A stretch of DNA of 64,000 nt, from NCBI RefSeq assembly GCF_024713975.1, contig NC_091096.1, forward strand, positions 1,645,001 to 1,709,000, read 5' to 3'. Both the position numbers and the translations under genes were made by a program. The notes under the pieces are model-generated. The model saw only the letters and a list, made by a program, of their open reading frames with translations. It was not told where the DNA came from and ran no database searches. The stretch comes from Paralichthys olivaceus. Taxonomy: Eukaryota; Chordata; Actinopteri; Pleuronectiformes; Paralichthyidae. Numbering within the stretch: the first letter of the stretch is position 1; each line of letters starts with the position of its first letter. This document shows positions 10,401-64,000 of this stretch, piece after piece.

Positions 10401-13122
10401 TTTGTTCAGCGACCCTCACAGTGAATTTAACAGTGAAAATGATTTTATTTACTCTTTTAAAGAACGCTGACAACTCAGTCCACATCCTGTTAGAGTTCAA
10501 ATCAAGCAATTTACCACCCGCTAAGTTGTTCACGCCAAAACCCTGTGTGTTCATGATCACACAGATGTTCCAGATAACACCTCATTCAAAAGATATGACC
10601 AGTAACTGATGCTAGGCAGGAATCATGAAACGGCTAATACAGATGTTTATCACTGACTAACTCTGTCTTGTTTCCTGCGTGTTAGGCGTTTGGTTTTGAC
10701 CCCATGGTGGATTTCTACGTGTCCAAGTCTGCAGTCGTGTTCGGAGGATTTTACCTGTTCTTCTTCACTGAGAAGGTTCTCAAAGTGCTGCTCAAACAGA
10801 GAAATGGGGTGAGTATGTTGACGCATGATGTTAAACTCGCAAAAACCACAATCGGCTTCCTGTTTACACCCAGTGAACATGGTTTCTGATGCTCGTCTGG
10901 ACGGAGACTGTTTTGGTTTCATCAGAATTTAACTTCTAACCTTCAGTAGGTCACATGTGAAGTGAACATTACACAATTAATTAAAAATACATAGATTCAT
11001 GAATATAACTTTATTTGTTTGATTTATTTCCCTTTATTGTTTTAATATCCAGTCTGTTCCTCTTTTTCAAATGGCTCAAGTCCATGAATCTTCAGTTGTG
11101 CTTTCCTTCACTCAATGACTCATGTTTCCTGCCCGCTGTTTATGTACGCTAATATTTTCCTCACTCTTCACGGAACTCTTCCAGTTCGACTTGTTTTTGG
11201 TTCTCGGTCACATCCCTGTGTCTATTTGCCGACATGCAGTAGTCATGTATGTGGCAGTTACTAAAACATGTGTATTTAACACAGATGTGTCGTTTCCATG
11301 AAGGTGCAGCAGAGTTTTACCTTTAAAACTTCAAACTGTCTCGACTCAGTGTGATGCTCTCGGCATTCACTCCTCCAGTGCTGCCGGGTTCATTCACAAA
11401 CAGCAGCAGTTACTGATAGAGGTGGAGGATTGTGGGACATTTGCTCCACCTTGTGGTTACTCTGGTTTGGTCCATATGGTTCAGCCAGTTTAAAGAACGG
11501 CTAACACGACCACCTGCTGATCCAATTACAGACGCTCTTTGACCCACATTAGCTCTTACATCGCTGCAGCTAATTCTCCAGCTCACTACACATTAAAACA
11601 TTTGCATAATTCTGTTTTATAATATTAAGACATCCTTGAGTTTAATGCTGAGTTTGTTTTGCTCCAGCCGACGCTTATTTTAGTTTGATGAACTCAGAGC
11701 AAATGCTGCCAGAGAGGCTCAGTTCAGGGCGAGATGGATTTAATATGATGTTTCAGACATGAACCCTGGAGAACGTCCACACAATCGGGTCTGGACTTCC
11801 TCCGGAGGTTGCCTTTCACCCAGCAGGAGATTCATGGCTGTTCGTTTCTGTTTCCTCGCCGTCTGTCAGAGCCACGGTCACAGCCATTACCCCAGCGCAG
11901 ATCGTTGCTCGTCACCTGACAGGGATTTGGAGGAGGGCGAGAAGGAGAAGCTGCAGCAGAACGGAGAAGCCGGCAGTCTGGCTGCGGGCAAAGTGGACGC
12001 CGGCGAGGGCGAGCTCATGCTCAGCCCCGCACAGACGCCGCAGGTAAGAACAGGCTGACGCGTGGATGAAGATCGGACAAACACTTGAGGAACATGAAGC
12101 AACTGAGAAAATATCATGAAGTAGCTCAAGAGAATAAAAACATTGTTTTGTTATCAGCATTCATGCAGAAATATTGAGGACAATTGAGTTAAACTAAGTT
12201 TAATCATCGTGTGGTTATTAAAGACAGTTTGGACCAATAGATGGACGATGTGATATTTTCATCCACACGTTTTAAGGACTCCCAGAGACCAGACAGCTCC
12301 GGGAGATCCGGAGGAGGCGGTGGCTGCTATTGGCTGAAGGGGACGACCTATTCTGACATCGGCACTCTGGCGTGGATGATCACGCTGAGCGACGGTCTGC
12401 ACAACTTCATCGATGGCTTGGCTATCGGAGCGTCCTTCACTTCGTCCGTCTTCCAGGGCATCAGCACATCCGTGGCCATCCTGTGTGAGGAGTTCCCCCA
12501 CGAGCTGGGTGAGTCGGGCCGGTTTCACTTCGGCAGCGGACAGGAACTTTTTCTGCCTCTAATGTTTACAAGAGTTTCAACTGATCATCATTTTTTTTTA
12601 AATGTCTATTTTTATCTACAAATCTTTGGTGGAGCTTCGTCTCCTTTTGTTGTTCTAACTTTTGTTCTGTCACCAGGAGACTTTGTGATCCTGCTGAACG
12701 CCGGCATGAGCATACAACAGGCTCTTTTCTTTAACTTCCTGTCGGCCTGTTGCTGTTACCTGGGAATGGGCTTCGGCATCCTGGCCGGCAACAGTTTCTC
12801 ACCCAACTGGATCTTCGCCCTGGCAGGAGGAATGTTCCTCTACATCGCTCTGGCAGACATGGTCAGTGTTTGGGGGGGGAAAGGGATGATTTGCTTCTCT
12901 AGAGCCAGAACACACACACACACAGCTGATTTCACAGGCAAAGTTTTAACTCTGTCTTATACTTTTCAGTTCCCAGAGATGAACGAGGTGAGTCGCGAGG
13001 AAGAGGACGCCGGCGGCAGCAGCTTCCTCCTCACCTTTGCCATCCAGAACGCCGGCCTGCTGACGGGCTTCTCCATCATGCTCCTCCTCACCATATACTC
13101 CGGACAGATACAGATGGGCTAG
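4451..13122 (+). CDS. slc39a14: Zinc/iron/manganese transporter ZIP14
   Basis: ZIP14 imports Zn, Mn and non-transferrin iron across the plasma and endosomal membranes. Coding exons: 4451-4768, 5528-5705, then either 8397-8566 or 9619-9788, then 10686-10808, 11870-12043, 12277-12508, 12677-12861 and 12970-13122. Each has GT-AG ends and phases match, giving 510 residues (human about 492). Seen in the sequence: a signal-peptide-like N-terminus (hydrophobic residues about 22-36), an N-glycosylation sequon (NTT) in the ectodomain, a His-containing cytosolic loop (exon 11870-12043), HNFIDG near residues 363-368, and EEFPHELGD near 392-400. In the last motif Glu replaces the first His of the usual HEXPHEXGD site, which is the ZIP14/ZIP8 signature. 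The C-terminus ends in SGQIQMG. The acceptor at 12277 could instead lie a few bases downstream. An untranslated first exon is not identified. Confidence 0.96.
5706..8396 (+). other. slc39a14 intron 3
   Basis: This 2.7-kb intron holds no exon I can support. It contains the decayed reverse-transcriptase remnant annotated at 7380-7660 and is otherwise AT-rich unique-looking sequence. ORFs around 6880-7320 are open by chance: they show no domain and have no matching splice signals. Confidence 0.6.
7380..7660 (+). mobile_element. Decayed LINE reverse-transcriptase fragment
   Basis: Translation of about 7427-7480 reads [15 protein letters not shown], which is the [10 protein letters not shown] box of non-LTR retrotransposon reverse transcriptases. 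About 33 codons later (7529-7546), in another frame, comes FYADDK with the catalytic YADD. The 'KHG' residues between the boxes are in a third frame, so at least two frameshifts and a stop separate them. It is a dead fragment, probably of a Rex1/L2/CR1-type LINE, in the sense orientation of the slc39a14 intron. Confidence 0.75.
8397..8566 (+). CDS. slc39a14: slc39a14 alternative exon 4, upstream copy
   Basis: This 170-bp exon encodes 57 residues from VWGFSFLSV to LQLLPE: one transmembrane helix, a short basic loop and the start of the next helix. Acceptor is cccgtcag and donor is gtttga, a weaker donor than the downstream copy has. It enters in phase 1 and leaves in phase 0, exactly like the exon at 9619-9788, and about 31 of 57 residues are identical between the two by eye. 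It corresponds to one of the two mutually exclusive exon 4 variants known in mammalian ZIP14. Confidence 0.9.
9619..9788 (+). CDS. slc39a14: slc39a14 alternative exon 4, downstream copy
   Basis: This 170-bp exon encodes VWGYGILCV to FQLIPE. Compared from memory with human ZIP14 it is nearly identical to the variant containing the FMKKTFYKR stretch. The acceptor follows a long pyrimidine-rich tract (about 9568-9618) and the donor is gtagtg. It has the same length and phases as the upstream copy, so only one of the two can be used in a productive mRNA. The loop residues between the helices differ most between the copies, which fits isoform-specific metal preference as described for mammalian ZIP14A/B. 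Confidence 0.92.
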
Positions 13123-47284: not shown

Positions 47285-48175
47285 TCAACGTCCAAGCTTT
47301 TTCCTCACAAATCTTTTAAACAGGTGCAGGTAATTGGCTTTCTCCTTGTCCACTTCTTCTGCGAGTCTGCCGCTAGCTTCTCTGTCTCTCTGGCTCTGCC
47401 TTCGAGCAAGGTCTTTCTGATGTATAGCATTCTGAAGTTCACTTTGTAGCCTCTTGTTCTCAGAAACCAGTTCTTGACTGTAACAAGTCAAATCAACCTG
47501 TTCTTCTTTGTCCTTTAGTTGTGAGACAGGAGCCTCTTGAGCGAGCTTCCTCTCACGTAAAGCTTCCTCAAGATCACCTTTTAACTTATTGTTCTCTAAA
47601 GCAAATTTGTGATTTTTCAGAGACAGACGGCGCAGTTTTTCTGAGTTCTCCTGCTGCTGGGAGATGGCAGCCTGATGAGCAAGGTCTCTCCCACGTAGAG
47701 CTTCCTCAAGTTTATCTTGTAGCTCCTTGTTCTTAGAAACCAGTTGGAGATTTTCATGAGGCAGATTGTAAGATTCAGTTTCTTTATACTGCATAAAGAC
47801 GGTAGTCTCTTCCGCAATCTGTAGAGCTTCCTCAAGTTCATCTTGTAGCCTCTTGTTTTCAGAAGCCAGTTGCTGATTCTCCTGAGTCAGCTGGTCCTGT
47901 TTTTCTGTTTCCTCAAGGTGCTGGGAGATGGCAGCCTGATGAGCGAGGTCTTTGTCACGTAGAGCTTCCTCGAGTTCATCTTGTAGCTCCTTCCTCTTAG
48001 AAACCAGACTGTGGTTTTCATGAGCCAGATTGTCAGATTCCGTTTGCTCACGCTTCATAGAGATGGTAGCCTCTTCATAAAGCTCTTCAGCTTCCTCAAG
48101 TTCAGCTTTTAGCCTCTTGTTTTTAGAAACCAGTTGGAGATTTTCATGAGTCATCATTTTCTGTGGAAACACCAT
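47285..48175 (-). CDS. Unrecognised coiled-coil protein built from 42/46-residue repeats
   Basis: A single uninterrupted frame of 296 residues. It is almost wholly heptad-like coiled coil, with about six diverged repeats starting near residues 10, 52, 98, 140, 186 and 231. Each opens with (H/Q)EN..L.S.NK.L and continues (D/A)(E/K)LEEAL. Unit lengths alternate 42, 46, 42, 46, and units 1+2 resemble units 3+4, which points to an 88-residue (264-bp) duplication. The C-terminus is basic (FVRKKLGR). Two AATAAA signals on the same strand lie 36-52 bp after the stop (47244-47249 and 47233-47238). The first Met has a poor context. A gtttccacag just inside the frame (48161-48170) could be a splice acceptor, which would make the true start Met7 or place an untranslated exon upstream. 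I do not recognise the family: it could be a lineage-specific gene, an expressed retrocopy, or the last exon of a larger gene. Confidence 0.55.
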   Translation of the reverse strand: MVFPQKMMTHENLQLVSKNKRLKAELEEAEELYEEATISMKREQTESDNLAHENHSLVSKRKELQDELEEALRDKDLAHQAAISQHLEETEKQDQLTQENQQLASENKRLQDELEEALQIAEETTVFMQYKETESYNLPHENLQLVSKNKELQDKLEEALRGRDLAHQAAISQQQENSEKLRRLSLKNHKFALENNKLKGDLEEALRERKLAQEAPVSQLKDKEEQVDLTCYSQELVSENKRLQSELQNAIHQKDLARRQSQRDREASGRLAEEVDKEKANYLHLFKRFVRKKLGR

Positions 48176-51342: not shown

Positions 51343-53086
51343 TCATCTCCCCTCCTCCACTGGACGAATCTCAGATTTCAGCTTGACAAACTCCTTGGCC
51401 ACCTCATCAGCAGGTCGCTGGGACAGGATACGCATCACCGTCATGCCCGTCTCGTCCGTCTGGATGCGTGGCCCCAGGGGACACCAGCACACGCAGCTCT
51501 TGCGGTCCGCGACGTCACGCAGCTGCACCACGGCCATGCCGACGACCCGGTCCGCGCGGCCAAAGCAGTAATCCTTCACGGTCACCTGGAGCTCGTAGCA
51601 GTCTGGAGACTCCTTACCCAGGATGCTGTGGGGCAGAGGGACACATTGAAAATCAGCCTCCTACTTACAATTTTCAGGTGCACACGTCTGGATTTGAAAC
51701 TCACAACTGGAAAGCCTCGTTGAACTTCGCCGTCCAGCTGTTGTTCTTGGATTTCGTGGTGAACTTGCGTTTCTTGTCGGCCAGAAAGGGGCCGATCACG
51801 GAGACGTCGGCGAAAGGCCGGAACATCCCTGATGTCTGCCACTTCATGTCGTTTACAGCAATGACTGGATGGACAAAAGAGAGGGAACGAGAGACAGAGA
51901 TGCACGAGTTACATACTGTATGTTAAGATTCATATAAGATCATATTGTTATCCGTTTTATTTTCCTATGTTATATTGTATTTTGGTCATATTTTGACTGT
52001 TTTCAAAATTAACTTGCAAACGTCTGAGACGTACTTAAGATCCAAATATTCCATCACAGGAAATTTGATTTAATTTTGAAATTGAAGACATTTAAACTAA
52101 AATTAGGAACATTTCATAAAAAACAAATCTGAGTCAATTCCCATATTTAAAATTTAACCTTAGATTCTGTTCAACCTTGGTTGTAGAAAATCGATTGTGA
52201 ATTTTCTTTTTTCTTGTTGTGGATTTAGTTGCCGTCAGTTTTAAAACTCAAGCTACAGATGTAGTTCACTATAAAACATTTTTTTTAAAGTAGTTTCAGC
52301 TTTTAGATGATTTTCTAAGTGATGATGGGAAATGGTAACCTGTGCTTTGGTCAAGAGTTGAGAGTAACAGACAAAAACAAGTATGAATGATCCTTGAATT
52401 ATAATTAAATCAGATCTAAAGCCTGGTACAGTTTGTATTGAAGAGGTTTAATTTAAACATTATAACTGTATATTGAACAGACTGACGGTTGACTCACCTC
52501 TGACGTTGACCTTACGTTCTTTCCCGAGCATCATATCGATCTGGAGAACGGCCTCTCCGATCGGCTTCTCCACCCCTGAACCTGCACGGGTCAACACAAA
52601 TATTACATTAAACATTAAACACGTTTAGACTTTAATCTAATCGTGTCTGGTCTTGATCCTTTGGCTGCTGCAGGGATCTTCTTTCTTTACTTTACAACTC
52701 AGCTTCGGACAAAGACATTCACATTTCTATCAGTTCTGCAGAGGCTCATGAGGAAATTTCGTTTTAACTTTATTTAGTATTTGATAAAGTGATGATTTTT
52801 AATTCAAAGCATAATATAAAAGCCCAAGTATCACACAGGAAATGGGAATAAAAAGCATAATAGCTTTCATGGGCAAGGAAGAGAACCTCCACCACCTCCG
52901 ACATTTCCCTGTGGAACCTAAGGAACCACAAATATTAAGAGTGTTGTGAACTTACCCCGATCAGGTCGAATCTTTTCATTGCCGGTGATTCTGATGCCCA
53001 TCCCATCATGCACTGAGACAACAGGAAGAGAAATTTAGAAATATTTCATCAGTTTGAGACACACAGGGGACGTCTGACCACGATAT

Positions 53087-53124
<38 letters not shown>

Positions 53125-54396
53125 TCACCCTGGGAGTGTTGCGTGGTGACAAAGGTTTTGATGAGAGCATCGGTGCTCTGGGAATAAAGGGAGAGGGCGT
53201 AGCGCAGGGACGCCAGTTCAGGACTTTTCTCCACAAACGCCTTCTTCAGCCCGTTTCCTCCAGCGTGGAAGTATTGCTGGAAGAAGAAAGCATCAGGGTG
53301 AAGGCGAGGACCAATGGATGAACAATAAAAACAAGACATACGACACAATTAGAACAACAAAGTACAAGTACAAATACACACGAATAGTCAATACAATAAA
53401 TAAGATATCAGAAAATAAAGTTGCTGAACTTGTTGTCGCTCTACCAAAATCCACTTTTTCATTGTCAGATATGTGAGTACACGCAGGTCTCCACTCACCT
53501 TGATGGTCTCCAGCCCTGCGTCGATGATGATGCACTGTTTGGGCGTCAGGGTTTTGGCTTCACCTCCTCCCTGCAGAGTTCACACGCTCACATCAGACAA
53601 ACGTCTCTTACAGGCAGCGTTGAGACGTAACAAAGTACATTTACAGATGCTAATTTAGTGTCTTTTTCATAAATCTGTACTTTACTTAAACTGATTCAGG
53701 TACTTTTCACTCTGACCCCACAACATATATCGGCAAATAATTACTGCACTACAATTTACAAAGCATCAGCTTTTATGTTCATATTGTTTTTCATATTCCA
53801 AGAACAAATCAATGATTAAAATGGCTGCCGCTGCCTGCGGGGCGTCACCTTGAGATTAGAGAGTCCTTTAGCCGCAGTGAGGAGTTGAGCTCCCTGCAGA
53901 GTAAAAACAGAGAGAGACACGTCACAGTTTCCTCTAAAGGAATAAAAACAGTGATTCAACATGATCACATCAAACTGGAACAAACACCGAAGGAAACACA
54001 CTTTGCCACCACTAGATGACAGCAGAGCACCGCCTCAGCTTTTTATACAGAGCGACAGAGAGAGACGTCAACAAGGTGCAGAATAAAAACGAAAACAAAG
54101 CTCAGCACTGACGTGAGATCCAGTCTGATCCTGTTTTGTTCGAGTACATCGGTGAATCAGTGTGTGTTACGCTCTCATGGTCACTAGGCTCAGTTAACGG
54201 TGTAGAGCTGTGAAGGGTTGGGGGGGTTTAGTGTTTACCAGGCTGTCGTTGCTCTGCGGCAGGACGATGATCTTCTCCAGGCTGCTCAGGACGATCTTCC
54301 ACAGATCCTTCAAGATCCTCTTCAGCACCGTCTTCTCACAGATGTCAGCGAAGATACTGAGACTGGGTGGGACACACAGACACACACACACACACA

Positions 54397-54435
<39 letters not shown>

Positions 54436-54917
54436 TATTCTTTTCTCTATTGTTAAAACAGGTCATTATTTTGTTTTGGTTCTGGAGGCAGCTCTCCTGA
54501 GGTCCACCGTCATCCAGAAAAAGTCATGACACGATATTTGTGAGACCCACTTGTGCAGTCATCTACATGCAGCGCACAACAGAACAGTGTGCGACTTACT
54601 TCCCGTCCAGGAACTCCATGAGGGGCCTCAGCATGGCGTCGGCATCTGCCTCTGCGGTGTCGTGCTTGGGAGGCCCCTTGATCTGGTAGAGGATCTCAGC
54701 CATCTGACGCATGCAGCCGGTGATACGAGTCTGGAAACTGGAGAGAGAGGAGGCAGAGGTGAACTCCTGCAGGAAAAACCTCAGAGAGGCTCGTTCCTCA
54801 GCTGTGTGTGTGTGTGTCTGCTACCTCTTGGCAAACACGATGCTGAAGTTGTCCAGGACGGTGCTCAGCTTCACCTGCAGCTCATTGAGGATGTTAGCTG
54901 CCTCTGTATCCATCTAC

Positions 54918-54963
<46 letters not shown>

Positions 54964-57900
54964 AGGAGATAACTGGTTATTTTCAGCCTTCACAGTCAGT
55001 GATGCAGAACAGCAAACAACCCGATGCCAAAACCTGGAAATTTGAAATGTCACATCTGAGCTGCAGCTCCAGCGTCTGTTGCCTCTTTGCTCCTCTGAAG
55101 CCAGATTCAGTATCTTTTCTTTTCTCAGTCAAAAACTTTCACACAAAAAACTCCCACTGTGGAGCCGCGATCGATTCGAACCTGTCGTCTGTTTCGCCTC
55201 GGTGGGTTTGGTGATTTTTGAGAACGTGCACAAACCAGATTTTAATGGTTTTTGATGTGTTAAAATATCGCAGAGCGCAGGAATACTTTCTAATGACGGA
55301 GACAAGAGGAGTAAGAGTGTGTAACACCTGCAGACTCATTTCTCAGCGTCAGCGGGTGACACAGCGTCACTGCTGTAAGACCAACGTGTGCAGATCAGTA
55401 AACAGGAGAGAAATGCTGAGTGAAGCTGGGATTGCAAAGATCGTGACTGTGGATGTAACGGTGAGAAGCACGACGAGCTCATTCATGCCTCTTCAAACCT
55501 ATTCAGCAGTGTTTCAAAAGAGCAGACCACTTCCTGGAGCTCCAGCAGAAAATAAAAAACACTCGAGAGTGAAGAAAAGGTCGTCTGCAGCAGGAGGCCG
55601 TCGCTCTTTCTCCTCAACTCGACGTCTCAATGGTTGAAAGGTGAATTTGAATTTGTTGACATTTAGTAAATGTAAAGAAAAGATGCTCTGGCTGATTTTT
55701 AAACTGGAATTAAAGAGGAAGCAGCCGAAGAAGTGATACAGATAACTTCTATATTTATTTATCTCGTTTGGTCGTCAGTGGTCAGAGTCCGCTTCACAGA
55801 TCCACTTAGACCAAGCAGACGTTCGATGCCACTACAAACGGACCCTGGAGCCTGAACGCTCGGCAGAGAGTCGTCTCGCCTCTGGGATTTAATTTCAATG
55901 TCTGGATTGTAACCTCTGTCACTCAGGTCATGTTTGATTCTAGCCCTGGGTGGAAAGCAGGCAGGGCTCAGCCAAAAACAAAGTTAACAATTAAATACAA
56001 ATATATTCCAACACAAATATAATTGTGATTTTTGCACATTGGAAATAATTCTATAGGCGACACAAACCAACATTTGACTGCAAACTTCTCTCCTGACATT
56101 TTCTCGGCTACGTACTGTGAATGGACGTAGACTCCAGGTTCGTGAAATTGAAAACAATGAGAAAGTGCCTGAAACCTGCATTCTCTCCAATGATCAACAG
56201 AGGGCGACTCGAGTCGGTTTCTATAGAAGTGAACTTCATGTTCATCTCATAAAGCAGCGTAGGCATTGGAGGCGTGGATATCGTGTGATTGACAGCTAGT
56301 AGCATCCAATGGGAGCAGGTGGCAGATGGAGGCGGGTGTGCACTATCCTCACGCTCTCAGTCAGGCTCCTCCCCTGCTCCTCCAAATATGGTTAAAATCA
56401 TGGCGCTGGAGAAAACGCCAAACTCAAGGCTTCAAACCAGCGGGTGACGTCACGCTGAGTCTGTACTTTTCATTCTGGTTTTCAGTTCTGTTCTTTTTAG
56501 ACTTCAGAAGAAAACACATGTTCATAGAGGATGACTGAACAAATAGAAATGTGCAGCTTCTTATTTACAAAGTTTGTAAATATATATCTCGGCTCTGTGA
56601 CAGCTCCGCACTGACTGAGCCACATTTTATTTTCCCTGATTGGACGTCTCGGCTGGACCGCGGGGGCGTGTACAGACCAGGTCTGAACACATCTCTCTCC
56701 TAATGAGACTTTTACGACGAGACAACTGAAACCTTCATCCTCCCCACGGGAGTGTTCGGATCTTATGTAATCGCTCGGCCACTGTGCCAACTGCAAACTA
56801 AGCAAATGTCTAATCGGTCAGAATAACTGATGCACGTGGTTTTTAAAACTAAATTCTTATCAACAAGCAACAATCAACAACCTTTTCCATTCACCAGCGT
56901 TAGGCAGTCTGCACCGTGAAGAGCGGAGTCTGCTATCAGACCTTGAATGAACCTGGCTGGACCTCATCAGTATGCTGGCTCTCAAGTGCGCTCCGCATGT
57001 TACACAGACACCGGACGACCGCAGGATAAGACATCGCAGAGTCTTTGCAGAGAGTGTGCCATCGATAAATGTGGGACTGAGTTATTAGATAGAGGACTGT
57101 GGGCAAAACGCCACAGGATTTAATTGGACCAGAGGACGGCTGTGACTTTCAAGTGACAGTGTTTTAGTATCTTGGATTTTAATTGAAAAATGTTGCATTG
57201 AGTAAAGTGAACGCTTGGACCATCCACTCAGCGTCTTTAGAACAAGTGTGTTCTTGGTCTGAATCCAAAAACTGAAAAGCTCAGTTGTGTTTATGTGAGT
57301 GTCGAGCAGTCAAACATCTTTATAGGTGTTTGAAGGTGACTGTGCACTTGATGTCTTCTTGGATGAAAGTACATGGAAGAGTCCAAACATAGAAGATTGT
57401 ATTTGGCAAAATATAAAAATTAACACATTGACAGACTCGTATGAGGACAACGTGACCTTTGACCACTGAACTCATTCATCTGAGTCAAAGTGAAAACCGA
57501 AGATGTGAAGAAATTCATGAGATTTAATGTTCAAGAGGCCAAACACATGTTTTGTGACCATGATCGATCGACCGCTCAAATTAAATCACTTACTCTGTGA
57601 GAACAAATGAACGATTGTACCAAATGATTCCCTGGAGGACGTCCTGAGTGTTCACGAGGCAAAAGTGTCACAGCGACCTTGACCTTTGACCTGATAATAT
57701 AATTTACAATAATAATCTCCTGTTGCATATAGTGAATTATTGTATTACTGTTTTCCCACATGTTCTTATTCTACTTATTTATATATATATTGAATTATAA
57801 TGCATATATTTTTAACAAACATTTTGCCAATTTCCCTCCAGACGTGGATTAAGTATTTATTAAGTATTTCTGATTTTAATTGGTGTTGGTGCAGAACCGA

Positions 57901-58080
57901 CAGCGTCTGCAGGTTCAGCTCAGTTCATTACGTTTCCAAATAAAAAATATCTCCTGCGTAAAACAACCAGATGTGAATCAATTCAAATGGAAACTTCAGA
58001 AAAGTTTGAAATCCTCTTTTCATTTCTCGACTCCTCAAGAAGTTTGGAAGAGAAAGAAAGTGAATGACTGAGAAAAAGAG

Positions 58081-58137
<57 letters not shown>

Positions 58138-60064
58138 TCACTAGAATAACAGCCTGGAATCAGAAGTGTCCTCGACCGGTAACAGACTCTCACTCTCACA
58201 CTCTCGCTCTAACAGTCAAATGTACCTTGTTGGTGGCAGCTGTGGCTTCAGTCTTCCCCGAAAGACAGAAAGAAAAAAAAACAAAAAACAGGAGAAAAGA
58301 CACAAAAGTAAAAAGAAAAGGAAAAGACACAACGCAGGACACTGATGATGAACACAAACAAAAACTATGACGAGGGTTAGATGTAAGTGAAGGGCACGCA
58401 GCAGGTGAGAGCAGCGGCAGCCTCCTGGTTATTTTGGGCTGTGTTTGGTGATATTGTCTGGTGGACTGGGTCGTGGTGAGTGGGCGATTTTAATAAAAGC
58501 TTTTTGTTTATTGCCTCTGGTTTATTGGGATTCTTCAGGACAAAGGGGAACGCTGACATCATGAGTCTGCGTTACCGCTGCACGCTGACATCATCCCCAA
58601 CTGGAATTATTTGGAGGAACCGATTGAATAATTAATTAGACGCTTGTGTAGCGGGTCGAAGGAGAACGTCGGCGGTTTGATCCCCGGTGTCCATGGATCA
58701 CAGGGGACCGAAAGTGCTGTATGTGTATGTGAGTAAATGGGTAAAGTGATTTGAGTGGCTGATTATAAAAGAAAAGTGTTATTTATAAATTCTCTCCATT
58801 TTTAATTGAGACAAAACCACTTTTAATATTCTGGTTTTAACACTCGGAGAAAACAAACGAACTGCACTCAAATAAAAATAGACAAATAGAAAAAGATATT
58901 ATGAAATTCAGGCTGTTTACTTCTCACAAATCCAGACTTGTATCGAGCAGCATGTCCATAAAGTTGAGATCGTTAACTGGGACCGCTGGTTGAGTTTGCT
59001 CAGGTTTTTATATCGTGTTTTATTTTCTACGTCTGCAGCTGACAGGAGAACAAAGTCAGGAGCTGAGGGAAAAACTCTACAGAGGAAAAAAGGGTCAAAC
59101 TAACCTTGTTTACTTCCTCCTTCGACTGGTGAGGAAAAAAAACAACAGAGTCAAACCTCAGACAAGTGATTTCACCTTTTTCACATCAAAATCAAATGTG
59201 AGGGCGACGACAAGCAAACAGTTTGACCGAGAGAGACTCAAATCAGAACAGAAACAAAAAGAAAAACTTCATCCTTGGGGAAAAAAAAAAGAAATATATA
59301 AATGTTTGTGAAATTGAATCAAGCTCTGCTGCCTCTGCCAGGGGCCGAGTGTTTTTGGCAAATGGGAACGATTCTTAGAAGTGGATTCTGGGAAATGTCT
59401 TGAGTCATCGACAAATCAGCTGGCTGTAACGAGGGCAGCAGACCGAGCGTGCAACGAATCACGAGGTGGAATCGTTCGCTTCTCTGGACCCGTGCTCGTC
59501 GCAAGACCAACAAACACACGTGCAAACAAAAAGTCGTTTGTATCGTATCTCAAGTCAAAACGAATCTGTGACACTGAACACGTCTGATGTGACAGATACC
59601 GAATAAACCAAAACACGTTTTGTTCACTCTTCTTCTTTTTAATGTCATTTTTCTTCTTTTAGAGCCACGTTGATCTTTCTTCACGTTTCACTCAGAATAC
59701 AGGACAAACGTTTTAACAGACGATGGCGTCGGACCTTTTGTTGCGGCTACGACTGAAGCTAATGTTCCTGTTCACTCACCTCTTTGCTTTTAGTTTCCTC
59801 CTTTGGGCGCAAAGGAGAAAGAGAAAGGTTGAGAAGAACGTAAACACTGTTATCCTCTCTTCATAAAGAGTTCGTCGCTGTGTTGTGCAGTGACAAGAAA
59901 ATAAAACCCCCGAAACAAACTGTGGCTTCAGTCAAATTAATAAATAACTGAGGGAGAGTTTCAGGGGAAAGAGAACAACTGAAGCTTTCAGGCAGAAACA
60001 GGAGGTGAAGGACGGAAGAAAAGAAACCAACCTGCTTCTCTTTGTCTTTCTTTTCAGCCTGCAA

Positions 60065-60108
<44 letters not shown>

Positions 60109-60456
60109 GTGAGTGATGAGGCCACACTCGACCACAGTCCCACTCAGCAACATTTTAACGCACTCCTCTTTCTTTTGGAACTTTTATTAGGTCCTCGTTC
60201 TGTTTCAGCCTCACTCCTCCAGACAGTGACTCACATATCAATGAAGCTCATTGTTGCTTTTAGCTGAAACCGTCCCAGACGCACTTCTGCTGATTCAGAG
60301 GTTTGACTTCCTCTGAGGGGTGATCAGTAAACTTGGCGTCCTGGGTTCATGATACACTTAAATAACTGCACTCCATCTTTCCAATCACCAAATCACTTCA
60401 CTAATGACTTGCTCTGTGTTTGAAGGTGTGGTTATTTAAAACCTCTCGGCCCTTTA

Positions 60457-60514
<58 letters not shown>

Positions 60515-61217
60515 GCCTCTAAATGTCTGAATATCATTTTTTAAACAAACGCACCTTTTCCTTCTTGGACTCAGACTGAAGGTGTAAAAACAGCAAAGAA
60601 AAATACAAATGAACGACAAATGACAAATAATAGTAAAATAAAATAATAAAATCATCATCATGGAGTATTATTATTATTATTATTATATTATATTATTATT
60701 ATATTAAAGGTTACATGAGCGTCCTCACCTTTTCCTTGTCAGTCTTATAAAGAAATAAAACAGTGAGACGTTAAAAACAGAAAAAGACAATAGGCAACAA
60801 ATAGGAGACATGATTAAAGCAACACCATGTGACTTTACTGAGCAGCAGCGCCCCCTGCAGCCACACATGGGGACTCATTCTGACGATCACAACACACGAG
60901 GAAGAATGTTCAACGATGGCTGAATTTTATTTTATTTTTTTTAGAGGAGAGACTTCGCAGGTTTGTAAGAAACTACAGTCGTTTATGTGACGTTAGTTTA
61001 TCGACATGTTTGCTGTTGTCGGTAACTCTGCGCTGCCCTCTAGTGGATGTGTTGCTCACTCACCAGAGTTACAGACGTTCAGGGAGTGAAGGAGGAAACT
61101 TTGTTCATGTTCACACTCAAACTTCTTTTTAATCAAGCTGCTGATTTATTGTTATAAAGTTGCATAGTGTTGCTTTAAGTTAATCGTCGAGGGTGATGGA
61201 GATAAAACGTGTCCTAG

Positions 61218-61276
<59 letters not shown>

Positions 61277-64000
61277 CAACAGCAAAGTAAACCAGAGTAC
61301 CTGTTCTAGTCAAACACTCATTTATCACAAACATTTCTTCATTTACTCACTGACAAAAGTGAGTAAATGAAGAATTACGGCTTAGTTGTATTTTAATAAT
61401 TCACCACATTTTCCCAGTGTTTCTCTCAACGGCTGCAGGAGCCTGACATTTTTTATTTTTAGAGCTGAAAGTAAAAAAAACATCCATCTGTTTTTTTTGT
61501 TTTTTTTTTTGTTCCCAACTGCAACAGGATTTTGAATCGTCTCAGAGAAACAGCAGCAGCCTGCAGTTTCCTCCCTGAAGCATATTCTCATGCTGCTCTG
61601 GGTGAAAATGGGATTTCTTGTCGAGACGGGCGGGTGACGCTACAGCGAGAGACCGAAGTGCATCGTTATCTGGTGACGAATCTTTGCTTCAGGTCAGCGA
61701 AAATACCACGTTCAAGGTTTCATGATATTTCAAACAAACACGTCTTAAAAATCTAAATCAGGAAATGGAATATTTCACACCCCAAAAAAGTAAGACGCCA
61801 TAAATTCACCGCAATAACTTGGATGAATCAGGATCTTTTTTTCCCCGCTGGTCTTATTTTTGTCTCATTGTTTAAAAAAACGTGAGCATGTCGTCTATAT
61901 TCCTGAGTTCTCACTCTGTTTCCTCGTGTCACTGGTTGAGATCTGAGATCGCTGACGCACCTTTAAACTTCTCATATTATGCAAAATAGACTTTTTCAAA
62001 CCCAGCGGATTTTTTCTGTTTTTGATGGAAAAGTGTGAACGTGAATCATTTTACGTTCGACAGCACGACACTGGAATCACTTCAGGGGATTTTTAAACAC
62101 AAAGAATTTACTGTTGATAAGGATGAGGTTTGATATTCTGCTGCACTGAAGGTATGAAACACTTTGTAAACACACAAACACACAAAACAACAACACACAC
62201 GTCCTGTCTGAGGCCTGACCGACCTTATTCTCCGTCTCCTTGTTGTCGAGCTGAGGACGGACACAACAGGACGAGACGACAACATGTGGTTCATTCAGAG
62301 CATTTTTATACGAGACACATTAAAATCTCATTCACTTTCATGACTTATTGATCGCCCCCTGGTGGCCGGCTGCAGCATAGGTCATAAATCCTGGCAAATG
62401 TAGTGGAGTGAAAAAAAAAAAAATGTTCTGTCTGAGTTATCGTGGAGTAGAGGTAGATTACAGACTAATGTCAATACTAGAGTACAAATACCTCAAATGT
62501 ACGTGTACAGCACTGTGCGGTTACCATCCGACCCGACTTTCCGCCACTAATAATCCATTCACCAAGAAAACACGACGACGCAGCAGAATGAATATAGATG
62601 AATATCATTTCACATCGAATCTGCAACGTGCAGTCGCATAAATCATCAATTAACACGAGGCTCTGCTGCAAAAACAAAACCTGAGAATAATTCTCCTCAA
62701 AACACAATATCTGATTCCACTTTATATTTCAAGCTACGATGCAGCAGCAGCATCAATTAACCACGAAATAAGTTAACAGCCTGAACTTCTTCATGCACGT
62801 GAACGAAACTGGAGCAGACGATTTCACAGAACGACGTTTTTCTCTGTATTTTTCAGCAGATGCACAGAAATCGTTCCCTCAGACACGAAACATCCTCATT
62901 TAAAAGCTCCAACTTGAGCAAAACAGCCGATAACAGTGTTTATCGTCTCTGTCACATCCATTAACATCTGTTAACTGCAGTCGTTGAGCAGCGGAGCCAA
63001 GAATTTATCTTTCCTCACCTCTGCTCCTCTCCCACACATCAGAGACCCCCCCACCCCCCACAGTCCGCTGACACACAGTCGCCATTTAGTTGCAGCTAAA
63101 TGCAAGAATTTTATACGAGATGAAATTCAATTATCTGGCAGCCCACTGTGGAGTCTATTAAACGCTCGGTCTCCGAGCTCCAGCTGTAAATGTGTTCAGA
63201 GCTCTGCTAACAGACGGTGCCGGAGGCTTTCTAACATCGGGTCTGAGCCGGGATTCATTAACGCAGGAGGAAGCAGACGAGGAGTTCAAACACATCACGG
63301 TCACTTGATGATATGTAAAAAAAAAAAAAAACTCTATGTTGAAACAACCAAAGCTTTGCATGTTCAAATCCCCGTCTCAGGTCTGAAGGTCCTCACGATA
63401 AACGTACGATATGTGTGACTTTGGCCACTAGGGGTCTCTGTCTAAACAACTAGGAAAAGACCTAGTTCGATGACATCGTGAAGCAGCTAAGGATCATGGG
63501 AATTATTATCTTCGCCACCACCCGTCGCCGCCCGTTATCCTCAACCCAACGTTCAGAACTGGAAATATTTGTTTTGTGTTTAAGTGATCGATTGTTTAAA
63601 TGTTTAAGACAAGTTTACTTTATTGATCCACGATGAGAAAATGTTCCTGCGTTTCTTAAATCATCATATTTATTTCTTATGATGTTTAATGATTCAATAT
63701 AATGATTATAATTATTATTATTATTGCACGATACTATAATTCAGACTTTAATTAGATATTAGCTAAGAGCTGTTCTTTCTCGCTTCCTTACAAATACTGA
63801 GATTAGTTGTTTTCCTTGTTTCTCTCTTACCTCAGATCCTTCAGAGTCTGAGCAGCCAGACTGAGTTTGAAACGGACAAAACAATAAGAAGAGAAAAAGA
63901 AGAGAATGTGACATAAAGGACACGAGACATTCGAGGAAGTAATAAAGACTGAAAGCTCAGGGGCTGTGACCTGGAATCCTTCTCTCACCTTGGATTCCTC
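51343..64000 (-). CDS. unc13: UNC13/Munc13 synaptic-vesicle priming protein, C-terminal part (gene continues past the window edge)
   Basis: Munc13 proteins open syntaxin and dock and prime vesicles through the MUN domain. Exons in transcript order: (64000)-63989, 63860-63831, 62250-62224, 60743-60729, 60575-60555, 60058-60032, 59800-59780, 58252-58226, 54913-54825, 54737-54600, 54362-54239, 53893-53849, 53570-53499, 53276-53129, 53012-52956, 52581-52498, 51864-51705 and 51625-51343. Phases agree throughout (459 residues visible). Seen: a K/E/S-rich linker; MUN segments [39 protein letters not shown] and [14 protein letters not shown]; then the C2C domain ([47 protein letters not shown]) and the tail [20 protein letters not shown]. 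The family is certain. From memory the tail and the LMEFLDG stretch look closest to UNC13B, but UNC13A or UNC13C is not excluded. Confidence 0.95.
52956..53012 (-). CDS. unc13: UNC13 57-bp optional cassette exon between MUN and C2C
   Basis: The exon inserts 19 residues ([19 protein letters not shown]) between SQ of the MUN end and GSGVEKPIG of the C2C start. Both neighbours have matching phases, so skipping it gives an in-frame SQGSGVEKP junction, the arrangement I remember from mammalian UNC13A/B. It is therefore probably alternatively spliced. Confidence 0.75.
53092..53123. repeat. TG/CA microsatellite directly after an UNC13 donor
   Basis: In the transcript this is a CA tract beginning 6 bases into the intron after the exon at 53276-53129 (gugauc, then CA repeats). 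Confidence 0.9.
54372..54434. repeat. CA/TG microsatellite fused to an UNC13 acceptor
   Basis: On the transcribed strand this is a UG tract ending about 9 bases before the AG of the exon at 54362, so it takes the place of a normal polypyrimidine tract. Confidence 0.9.
54803..54818. repeat. Short TG/CA tract directly after an UNC13 donor
   Basis: In the transcript this is a CA tract starting 7 bases into the intron after the exon at 54913-54825. Confidence 0.85.
54919..54961. repeat. CA/TG microsatellite fused to an UNC13 acceptor
   Basis: In the transcript this is a UG tract ending within 5 bases of the acceptor AG of the exon starting at 54913. Confidence 0.9.
56110..56470. repeat. Teleost dispersed repeat containing a CRE-like palindrome
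   Basis: Wording such as 'agagggcgactcgagtcggt', 'ggcgctggagaaaacgccaa' and 'caaaccagcgggtgacgtca' matches a common fish element whose ends read 'ccatagactgtatataaa' (an end of that type is at 46515). TGACGTCA is at 56445-56452. Confidence 0.55.
57440..57740. repeat. Dispersed repeat with 'gaccttgacctttgacct'
   Basis: The phrases 'acgtgacctttgaccactga' and 'cgaccttgacctttgacctg' are typical of a high-copy fish repeat. TGACCTTTGACCT at 57680-57692 is also a perfect DR1 nuclear-receptor half-site pair, probably carried by the repeat. Confidence 0.5.
58084..58134. repeat. CA microsatellite in UNC13 intron
   Basis: About 25 CA units (UG in the transcript), roughly 90-140 bases downstream of the donor of the 27-bp microexon at 58252-58226. 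Confidence 0.9.
58226..64000 (-). CDS. unc13: Series of in-frame UNC13 microexons encoding a charged linker
   Basis: Each microexon is flanked by AG and GT and keeps phase 0. In transcript order: (64000)-63989 (EESK, cut by the window edge), 63860-63831 ([10 protein letters not shown]), 62250-62224 (LDNKETENK), 60743-60729 (TDKEK), 60575-60555 (SESKKEK), 60058-60032 (AEKKDKEKQ), 59800-59780 (EETKSKE) and 58252-58226 (TEATAATNK). Sizes of the complete exons are 30, 27, 15, 21, 27, 21 and 27 bp. They join directly to [13 protein letters not shown] in exon 54913-54825. The position just before this MUN segment suggests the long flexible loop that was removed for the rat Munc13-1 MUN crystal structure; that correspondence is inference. 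Confidence 0.8.
58652..58800 (+). repeat. SINE-like dispersed repeat fragment
   Basis: Contains 'ggcggtttgatccccggtgt' and 'gggtaaagtgatttgagtgg', the usual order in a frequent teleost repeat. It is related to the fragment at 35640-35830. Confidence 0.5.
60067..60107. repeat. CA/TG microsatellite fused to a microexon acceptor
   Basis: In the transcript this is a UG tract followed by uccuugcag and then the 27-bp microexon at 60058-60032. Confidence 0.9.
60459..60513. repeat. CA/TG microsatellite between UNC13 microexons
   Basis: Uninterrupted CA on the plus strand (UG in the transcript), starting about 42 bases downstream of the donor of the 21-bp microexon at 60575-60555. Confidence 0.9.
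61223..61275. repeat. CA/TG microsatellite in UNC13 intron
   Basis: A long CA run preceded by GCGCGC, which makes the left edge Z-DNA-prone. It lies in the 1.5-kb intron between the microexons at 62250-62224 and 60743-60729. Confidence 0.9.
61335..61374. repeat. Perfect 17-bp inverted repeat (hairpin)
   Basis: Arms at 61335-61351 (TTCTTCATTTACTCACT) and 61358-61374 are exact reverse complements around a 6-base loop. It lies in the intron between the 27-bp and 15-bp UNC13 microexons. Confidence 0.85.
62352..62369 (-). promoter_or_regulatory. Candidate CTCF motif in UNC13 microexon region
   Basis: The minus strand reads GGCCACCAGGGGGCGAT, a near-consensus CTCF core, about 100 bp from the microexon at 62250-62224. 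Two further CTCF-like sequences, CTGCAGGGGGCGCT (60847-60860) and TCCACTAGAGGGCAGCG (61031-61047), lie in the same orientation. Confidence 0.4.

Follow-up and report, generated by a model that had tools for sequence, protein, structure and literature searches.

What is encoded by a dense run of very short exons that lies before a MUN-domain exon of an UNC13 gene in the fish Paralichthys olivaceus, and how might it alter the protein? Munc13 proteins set the number of fusion-ready vesicles and act on SNAREs through their MUN domain. The run straddles the end of the window, the whole 64,000-nucleotide stretch of DNA that we analysed (G000:C4:1645001-1709000, from a 588-Mb genome in 25 contigs); its upstream part was read from six 10-kb pieces of that contig, with coordinates extended past 64000. 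The gene lies on the minus strand, where the last UNC13 exons, which encode MUN segments and the C2C domain, span ~54.9 kb to 51.3 kb. A sequence-only reading of this DNA had assigned them to UNC13, and the assignment is borne out by MUN and C2C sequence homologous to Munc13, the MUN part matching Munc13-1 chains with an E value of 1.7e-33 in a homology search. The best database proteins carry the names unc-13 homolog B-like or Unc-13 homolog Ba. Among the matches listed (the best 120 of 2780), P0001 from Amphiprion is 90% identical across the entire scored region, and the nearest of the retrieved proteins, P0028 (Trachinotus) and P0027 (Seriola), are 96.1% identical over 205 residues. Homology identifies the gene as a member of the UNC13/Munc13 family and, within it, as the teleost UNC13B paralogue unc13ba, a name we adopt because its database relatives bear it.

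In the window and the genome sequence upstream of it, the array comprises 12 consecutive microexons of 15-39 nt, together 297 nt or 99 codons, spread over ~7 kb. The features, in the order of transcription, are as follows.

66121 (extended), minus strand: end of the upstream flanking exon (...MFESMGAKQ), with a phase 0 junction to the MUN exon.
65182-65202 (extended), minus strand: microexon m1, FTAEEER, outside the window.
64855-64893 (extended), minus strand: microexon m2, LENEEEPEECDEE, outside the window.
64141-64173 (extended), minus strand: microexon m3, AVSDDEGEDDM, outside the window.
63989-64003, minus strand: microexon m4, SEESK, 15 nt, of which 12 nt are visible up to 64000; a SEDSK/SEETK module in other fishes.
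63831-63860, minus strand: microexon m5, 30 nt, with 8-10 of 10 residues identical in 16 compared proteins.
62224-62250, minus strand: microexon m6, LDNKETENK, 27 nt, weak donor GTCGGT; missing from Amphiprion P0005 and Solea P0012.
60729-60743, minus strand: microexon m7, TDKEK, 15 nt.
60555-60575, minus strand: microexon m8, SESKKEK, 21 nt.
60032-60058, minus strand: microexon m9, AEKKDKEKQ, 27 nt, acceptor directly 3' of a (TG)n run, weak donor.
59780-59800, minus strand: microexon m10, EETKSKE, 21 nt.
59105-59125, minus strand: microexon m11, SKEEVNK, 21 nt; identical in Amphiprion, Solea, Siniperca and Labrus.
58226-58252, minus strand: microexon m12, TEATAATNK, 27 nt, weak donor; missing from Amphiprion P0006 and P0015, and the sole module of Gasterosteus P0040.
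54825-54913, minus strand: MUN-domain exon 3' of the array, starting in phase 0 and aligned to Munc13-1 crystal chains.
51346-54737, minus strand: downstream unc13ba exons, assigned from reading frames and homologues, covering the remaining MUN domain and the C2C domain to the last codon.

The microexons are separated by introns of 128 to 1580 nt, and a 3312-nt intron follows the last of them. All 12 are multiples of three in phase 0 and the flanking exons also join in phase 0; therefore any subset preserves the reading frame. By size, nine of the 12 measure at most 27 nt, ten at most 30 nt and all at most 51 nt; the usual limit for vertebrate microexons is 27-30 nt, and the broader one 51 nt. 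The sequence-only reading had proposed at least eight such exons. Its seven complete ones, of 15-30 nt with AG/GT borders, were all found where it had placed them, each a multiple of three in phase 0, and the exon cut by the window edge is real, as three further genomic bases complete its 15 nt. The dense in-frame array stood and proved larger than proposed: one exon within the window (m11) had been missed and three more lie upstream, for a total of 12. The proposal of a charged linker immediately before the MUN exon was also right. By consensus score, the m11 acceptor is the strongest of the 12, and the donors of m6, m9 and m12 and the acceptors of m1 and m5 are weak.

Exons this short could be chance pairings of AG and GT, a candidate explanation that we rejected on the basis of scan controls and of peptides that recur in fish homologues. 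We scanned for consensus splice sites bounding exons of 9-45 nt, counting nested alternatives and using loose thresholds picked after the exon scores were known (m1 scores below them); because the thresholds were set after the exons had been seen, the loose scan is a description rather than a test. Within the array interval it returned 13 sense-strand candidates, of which 12 were in frame and open and 11 had at least half charged or serine residues, against four on the antisense strand (none in frame and open, none charged or serine-rich) and 47 in window positions 1-50000 on both strands (100 kb scanned; 22 in frame and open, three charged or serine-rich). Under stricter thresholds (2.5 and 4), the corresponding numbers were 7, 7 and 7 for the sense strand, 2, 0 and 0 for the antisense strand, and 10, 7 and 2 for the control. 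A separate scan of the in-window part found nothing on the plus strand and five minus-strand candidates, of which two were nested. Stronger evidence than any scan is the presence of related peptides, in order, in the annotated proteins of other fishes. As to the origin of the array, a blastn comparison among the 12 exons, each taken with 150-nt flanks, yielded only overlaps between neighbouring flanks, repeat-like matches and short matches, giving no support for tandem exon duplication at such length.

To survey other fishes, we combined the best 120 of 2780 proteins retrieved with the conceptual protein and the best 120 of 585 retrieved with the insert region, a set of 183 distinct proteins. 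Of these UNC13B proteins, 113 parse as insert-free, 57 carry an insert and 13 were left unparsed (several of which do show inserts by eye), counts that are not frequencies because isoforms and fragments are included and the matches were listed in order of likeness to the query. The insert-free junction reads ...GAKQ|LDTEAADILN. Full or near-full inserts, 99-114 residues long, are seen among others in Amphiprion, Maylandia, Pelmatolapia, Siniperca, Solea, Girardinichthys and Sphaeramia. A similar module order is found in zebrafish (P0125), Danionella (P0127), piranha (P0124), Denticeps (P0123) and cod (P0136), where most losses and replacements of modules affect the array's 3' part, and Paramormyrops P0160, from an early-branching teleost group, has an insert resembling m2 and m3. 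Against 16 proteins selected for carrying inserts, zebrafish, piranha, Denticeps and cod included, identity reached 8-10 of 10 residues for m5, 9-13 of 13 for m2 and 5-9 of 9 for m9. The modules m4, m6, m7, m8 and m10-m12 are more variable in these proteins and some are missing in some species, m4 having 0 of 5 residues identical in Labrus, Perca and Gadus and m11 0 of 7 in Oryzias and Gadus. The segments are thus conserved across fishes, an outcome opposite to the one that the sequence-only reading had named as its refutation. Several percomorphs possess an extra module, m6b (D-SS-YDDSEEEQEK), for which a tblastn search of 60743-62224 with three versions gave no convincing match in Paralichthys olivaceus.

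Eighteen of the 57 insert-bearing proteins carry the other paralogue's type of insert. This different acidic and Lys/Glu sequence occupies the same site in P0148 (Danio X9), P0167 (Solea), P0143 (Paralichthys), P0163 (Etheostoma) and P0180 (Oncorhynchus), proteins that we infer to represent the second paralogue, unc13bb. For tetrapods, a search with an approximate human UNC13B segment listed the best 120 of 2392 proteins. Apart from three without a name, these came from mammals and, in four cases, from amphibians; no named one belonged to a bird, reptile, gar or shark. All 120 are insert-free at this site, with a junction that reads GGKE|LDxEA or a close variant, but a rare short microexon could be hidden because the listed proteins are representatives of 90% clusters. 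Relative to the mammal and amphibian proteins checked, the array appears to be a fish feature. Some fish database models of this gene are fusions or bear a wrong name (dehydrogenase for P0034, phospholipid transporter for P0093), and that of P0122 (Pogonophryne) runs into unrelated-looking sequence within the array.

Annotated database protein models provide the isoform evidence. In Amphiprion, P0001 contains all 12 modules, P0004 adds m6b, P0005 lacks m6, P0006 lacks m12, P0015 adds m6b and lacks m12, and P0078 is insert-free. The Solea models hold all modules (P0002), all except m6 (P0012), all except m6-m8 (P0018 and P0019) or m11 and m12 only (P0024). Gasterosteus has a near-full form with extra intron-like sequence (P0021) and one with m12 only (P0040); Channa striata P0141 combines m9 and m12; Channa argus P0139 combines m2, m3, m6 and m9; Collichthys P0101 has m6 and m6b; and Chanodichthys P0132 has m1-m5, m9 and m10. 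Insert and insert-free records both exist in Maylandia, Oryzias, Spinachia, Labrus and Sphaeramia, and the breaks of some partial models coincide exactly with Paralichthys olivaceus exon borders. The exons were rightly called skippable, and annotated models within species differ at these borders. These models support cassette use of at least m6, m6b and m12, together with blocks of other modules, and conservation and annotation jointly support a splicing interpretation.

We therefore favour, with a probability of roughly 0.77, the reading that the 12 consecutive microexons of teleost unc13ba are in-frame cassettes that would tune the length and charge of a loop, the tuning function being the presumptive part of the claim. 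A two-state alternative, which we consider a credible minority view, holds that the modules are co-regulated to give mostly insert-free or near-full protein, with partial forms being either minor products or errors of gene prediction; in that case it would be one long optional loop split by introns, with no combinatorial code, that the array encodes. This alternative accords with the 113 of 183 listed proteins that are insert-free, with the near-complete module content of most unc13ba-type inserts and with the damaged look of partial models such as P0021 (intron-like sequence), P0140, P0145 and P0165 (odd insertions). Several of the Amphiprion and Solea models, however, differ by exactly one module or by a neat block, a pattern not expected from a pure two-state switch.

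A bolder proposal extends the cassette reading to a splicing rheostat, in which 12-13 microexons would be chosen individually by cell type in teleost neurons to yield up to thousands of UNC13B forms, loop charge and length would set release properties, and both teleost UNC13B paralogues would carry a charged insert where mammals have none. We regard this as unlikely. The forms seen in annotations are inclusion of the whole insert, skipping of the whole insert and a handful of partials, as against the 128 combinations put forward from seven exons, now 4096.

Still less probable, in our judgement, is that the insert is a near-neutral disordered spacer in an insertion-tolerant turn, built of tiny fish exons with little function and noisy splicing. 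Drift outside m2, m5 and m9, the loss of modules, the commonness of insert-free forms among the 183 listed proteins and the ability of the listed tetrapod proteins to manage without an insert would all fit such a spacer. Against it stand the conservation of m5, m2 and m9 from zebrafish to percomorphs, the retention of frame and phase in all 12 exons, and the separate charged insert that the other paralogue's proteins have at the same site.

We next placed the cassette array within the MUN domain. The insert-free fish sequence aligns gaplessly to Munc13-1 crystal chains, with the junction at 3swh position 143/144, and the exon that follows the microexons matches Munc13-1 LDAEASGTLKELQVKL at chain position 144. 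We take the 3swh chain to start at residue 1148, which puts the junction at residue ~1290/1291 of Munc13-1; the chain length of 341 residues is what 1148-1531 gives when two residues stand in for 1408-1452. Segment 1408-1452 is a flexible loop that crystallographers removed and that, according to a report citing Brose 1995, is alternatively spliced (PMC5344669). The sequence-only reading had equated the array with this long flexible loop. That placement is wrong: in the 3swh alignment the insert sits near residue ~1290, at a turn between helices, and precedes LDAEASGTL at position 144, whereas the 1408-1452 loop would follow IVLPP near position 260, >110 residues later, and after IVLPQ the fish protein carries a short sequence of its own. 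That the array nevertheless encodes the 1408-1452 loop is highly improbable, a reading rejected by the alignment even though both are poorly conserved, optional MUN inserts altered by splicing, and the passages of that report on the loop describe no microexon array (PMC5344669).

An AlphaFold2 model of P0163, which carries the other paralogue's type of insert, covers 765 residues from a 31-sequence alignment, and only its broad helix-disorder-helix pattern was used because its mean pLDDT is 48. A helix at 269-290 (blocks at 71-80) is followed by a region with pLDDT <50 at 294-355, inside which lies a short low-confidence helix at 297-310, and then by a helix at 358-384 (blocks at 82-87). From this pattern, the insert is predicted to be a disordered loop in the turn between two MUN helices.

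The loop is divided in charge. The modules m1-m5 have a net charge of -21, and m6-m12 sum to 0 and are rich in lysine and glutamate, so that taking the acidic half in or out would shift the net charge of the loop by ~21 units. Splicing would thereby choose a loop length of 0 to ~100 residues together with its net charge, and these would tune, in particular cell types, how the priming domain contacts SNAREs, Munc18 or membranes. Seven S/T-x-x-D/E sites, the casein kinase 2 pattern, lie within the 99 residues, and phosphorylation of the acidic serines (SDSE, SDDE) may be a further means of control.

A UGC close upstream of the acceptor is a sign of SRRM3/4-type neural microexons, and the sequence-only reading had suggested looking for one before each microexon. 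TGC occurs within 40 nt upstream of four of the 12 (m3, m8, m9 and m10), against a background of 38% of all 40-nt windows, so there is no enrichment over the array, although an individual exon may carry a site. Proteins that bind UG repeats include TDP-43 and the CELF proteins. All six (TG)n runs of at least 10 units in the array interval (54920-61275, and extended 65212-65249) are in sense orientation. Three lie inside introns, and each of the others directly precedes an acceptor (that of m1, m9 or the MUN exon). The shared orientation may be mere local bias because 19 of the 26 runs from 51000 to 123000 of the joined stretch are also sense. The orientation bias is weak.

To our knowledge, the unc13ba array is among the longest runs of adjacent coding microexons, and for that reason it would be a good system in which to study how the spliceosome defines a dozen tiny consecutive exons. 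The TNNT3 exons offer a precedent, being short and acidic, and combinatorial splicing of troponin T was reportedly the subject of Breitbart 1985. In TNNT3, which encodes fast skeletal troponin T, exons 4-8 near the 5' end are alternatively spliced and thereby diversify a single protein region (PMC2447309). TNNT3 differs in that it encodes a muscle protein varied in its N-terminal region by five exons, whereas unc13ba varies an internal loop of a folded domain with twelve. In unc13ba, adjacent short in-frame exons are present, and the partial combinations are those of database protein models.

Microexons are also known in other MUN-domain genes, and passages of one paper give them as 9 nt in C. 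elegans unc-13, 6 nt in mammalian Unc13c, 6 nt in mouse Unc13b and 9 nt in Cadps; choice of the worm exon by neuron type changes synaptic function and matters for behaviour (PMC12287369). These resemble the unc13ba exons as tiny in-frame exons in UNC13-family genes, but are single and of 6-9 nt, with the worm and Unc13c ones lying between the CaM and C1 regions (PMC12287369). The unc13ba array, by contrast, comprises 12 tandem exons of 15-39 nt within the MUN domain. Zebrafish srrm3/4-dependent neural microexons are likewise small (3-27 nt) and found in vesicle and synapse genes, and unc13 is missing from the main text of the paper that describes them (PMC12626424). Elsewhere, exon 38 of UNC13A is reported, in an excerpt, to be skipped upon depolarisation (PMC9065059), and unc13ba is named in a table row on regulated exocytosis from a paper on teleost conserved noncoding elements. 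A photoreceptor Unc13b exon is named in passages of one paper, and Unc13b is not named in a photoreceptor Musashi paper. A literature search over titles, abstract starts and passages, with subscription journals mostly outside its coverage, gave no description of the unc13ba array. The array matters as a conserved, modular and optional MUN insert in which evolution has supplied a graded set of lengths and charges, and it allows testing whether the loop near residue 1290 adjusts priming.

Several other features were seen in the same protein and window. A second long charged stretch (KKEKAEGEDGEEDEEEEEEEE...KKEENQPEEQ) lies directly before GPSIQNLDFWPKL, at ~71.4-71.5 kb in extended coordinates (L001) on the minus strand, and is found in Amphiprion too. 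Between the end of the MUN domain and the lead-in to C2C, a 19-residue stretch at ~52957-53012 on the minus strand has a counterpart in Amphiprion models and may correspond to the alternative stretch 1533-1551 that, in passages of one report, is deleted from a rat Munc13-1 clone (PMC5344669). An open frame of 296 residues with a coiled-coil look (ENQQLASENKRLQDELEEAL) and no Pfam match occupies window positions 47288-48175 on the minus strand. Finally, a ZIP zinc transporter gene (PF02535, E 1.9e-31) is located at window positions 12241-13119 on the plus strand, opposite to unc13ba.
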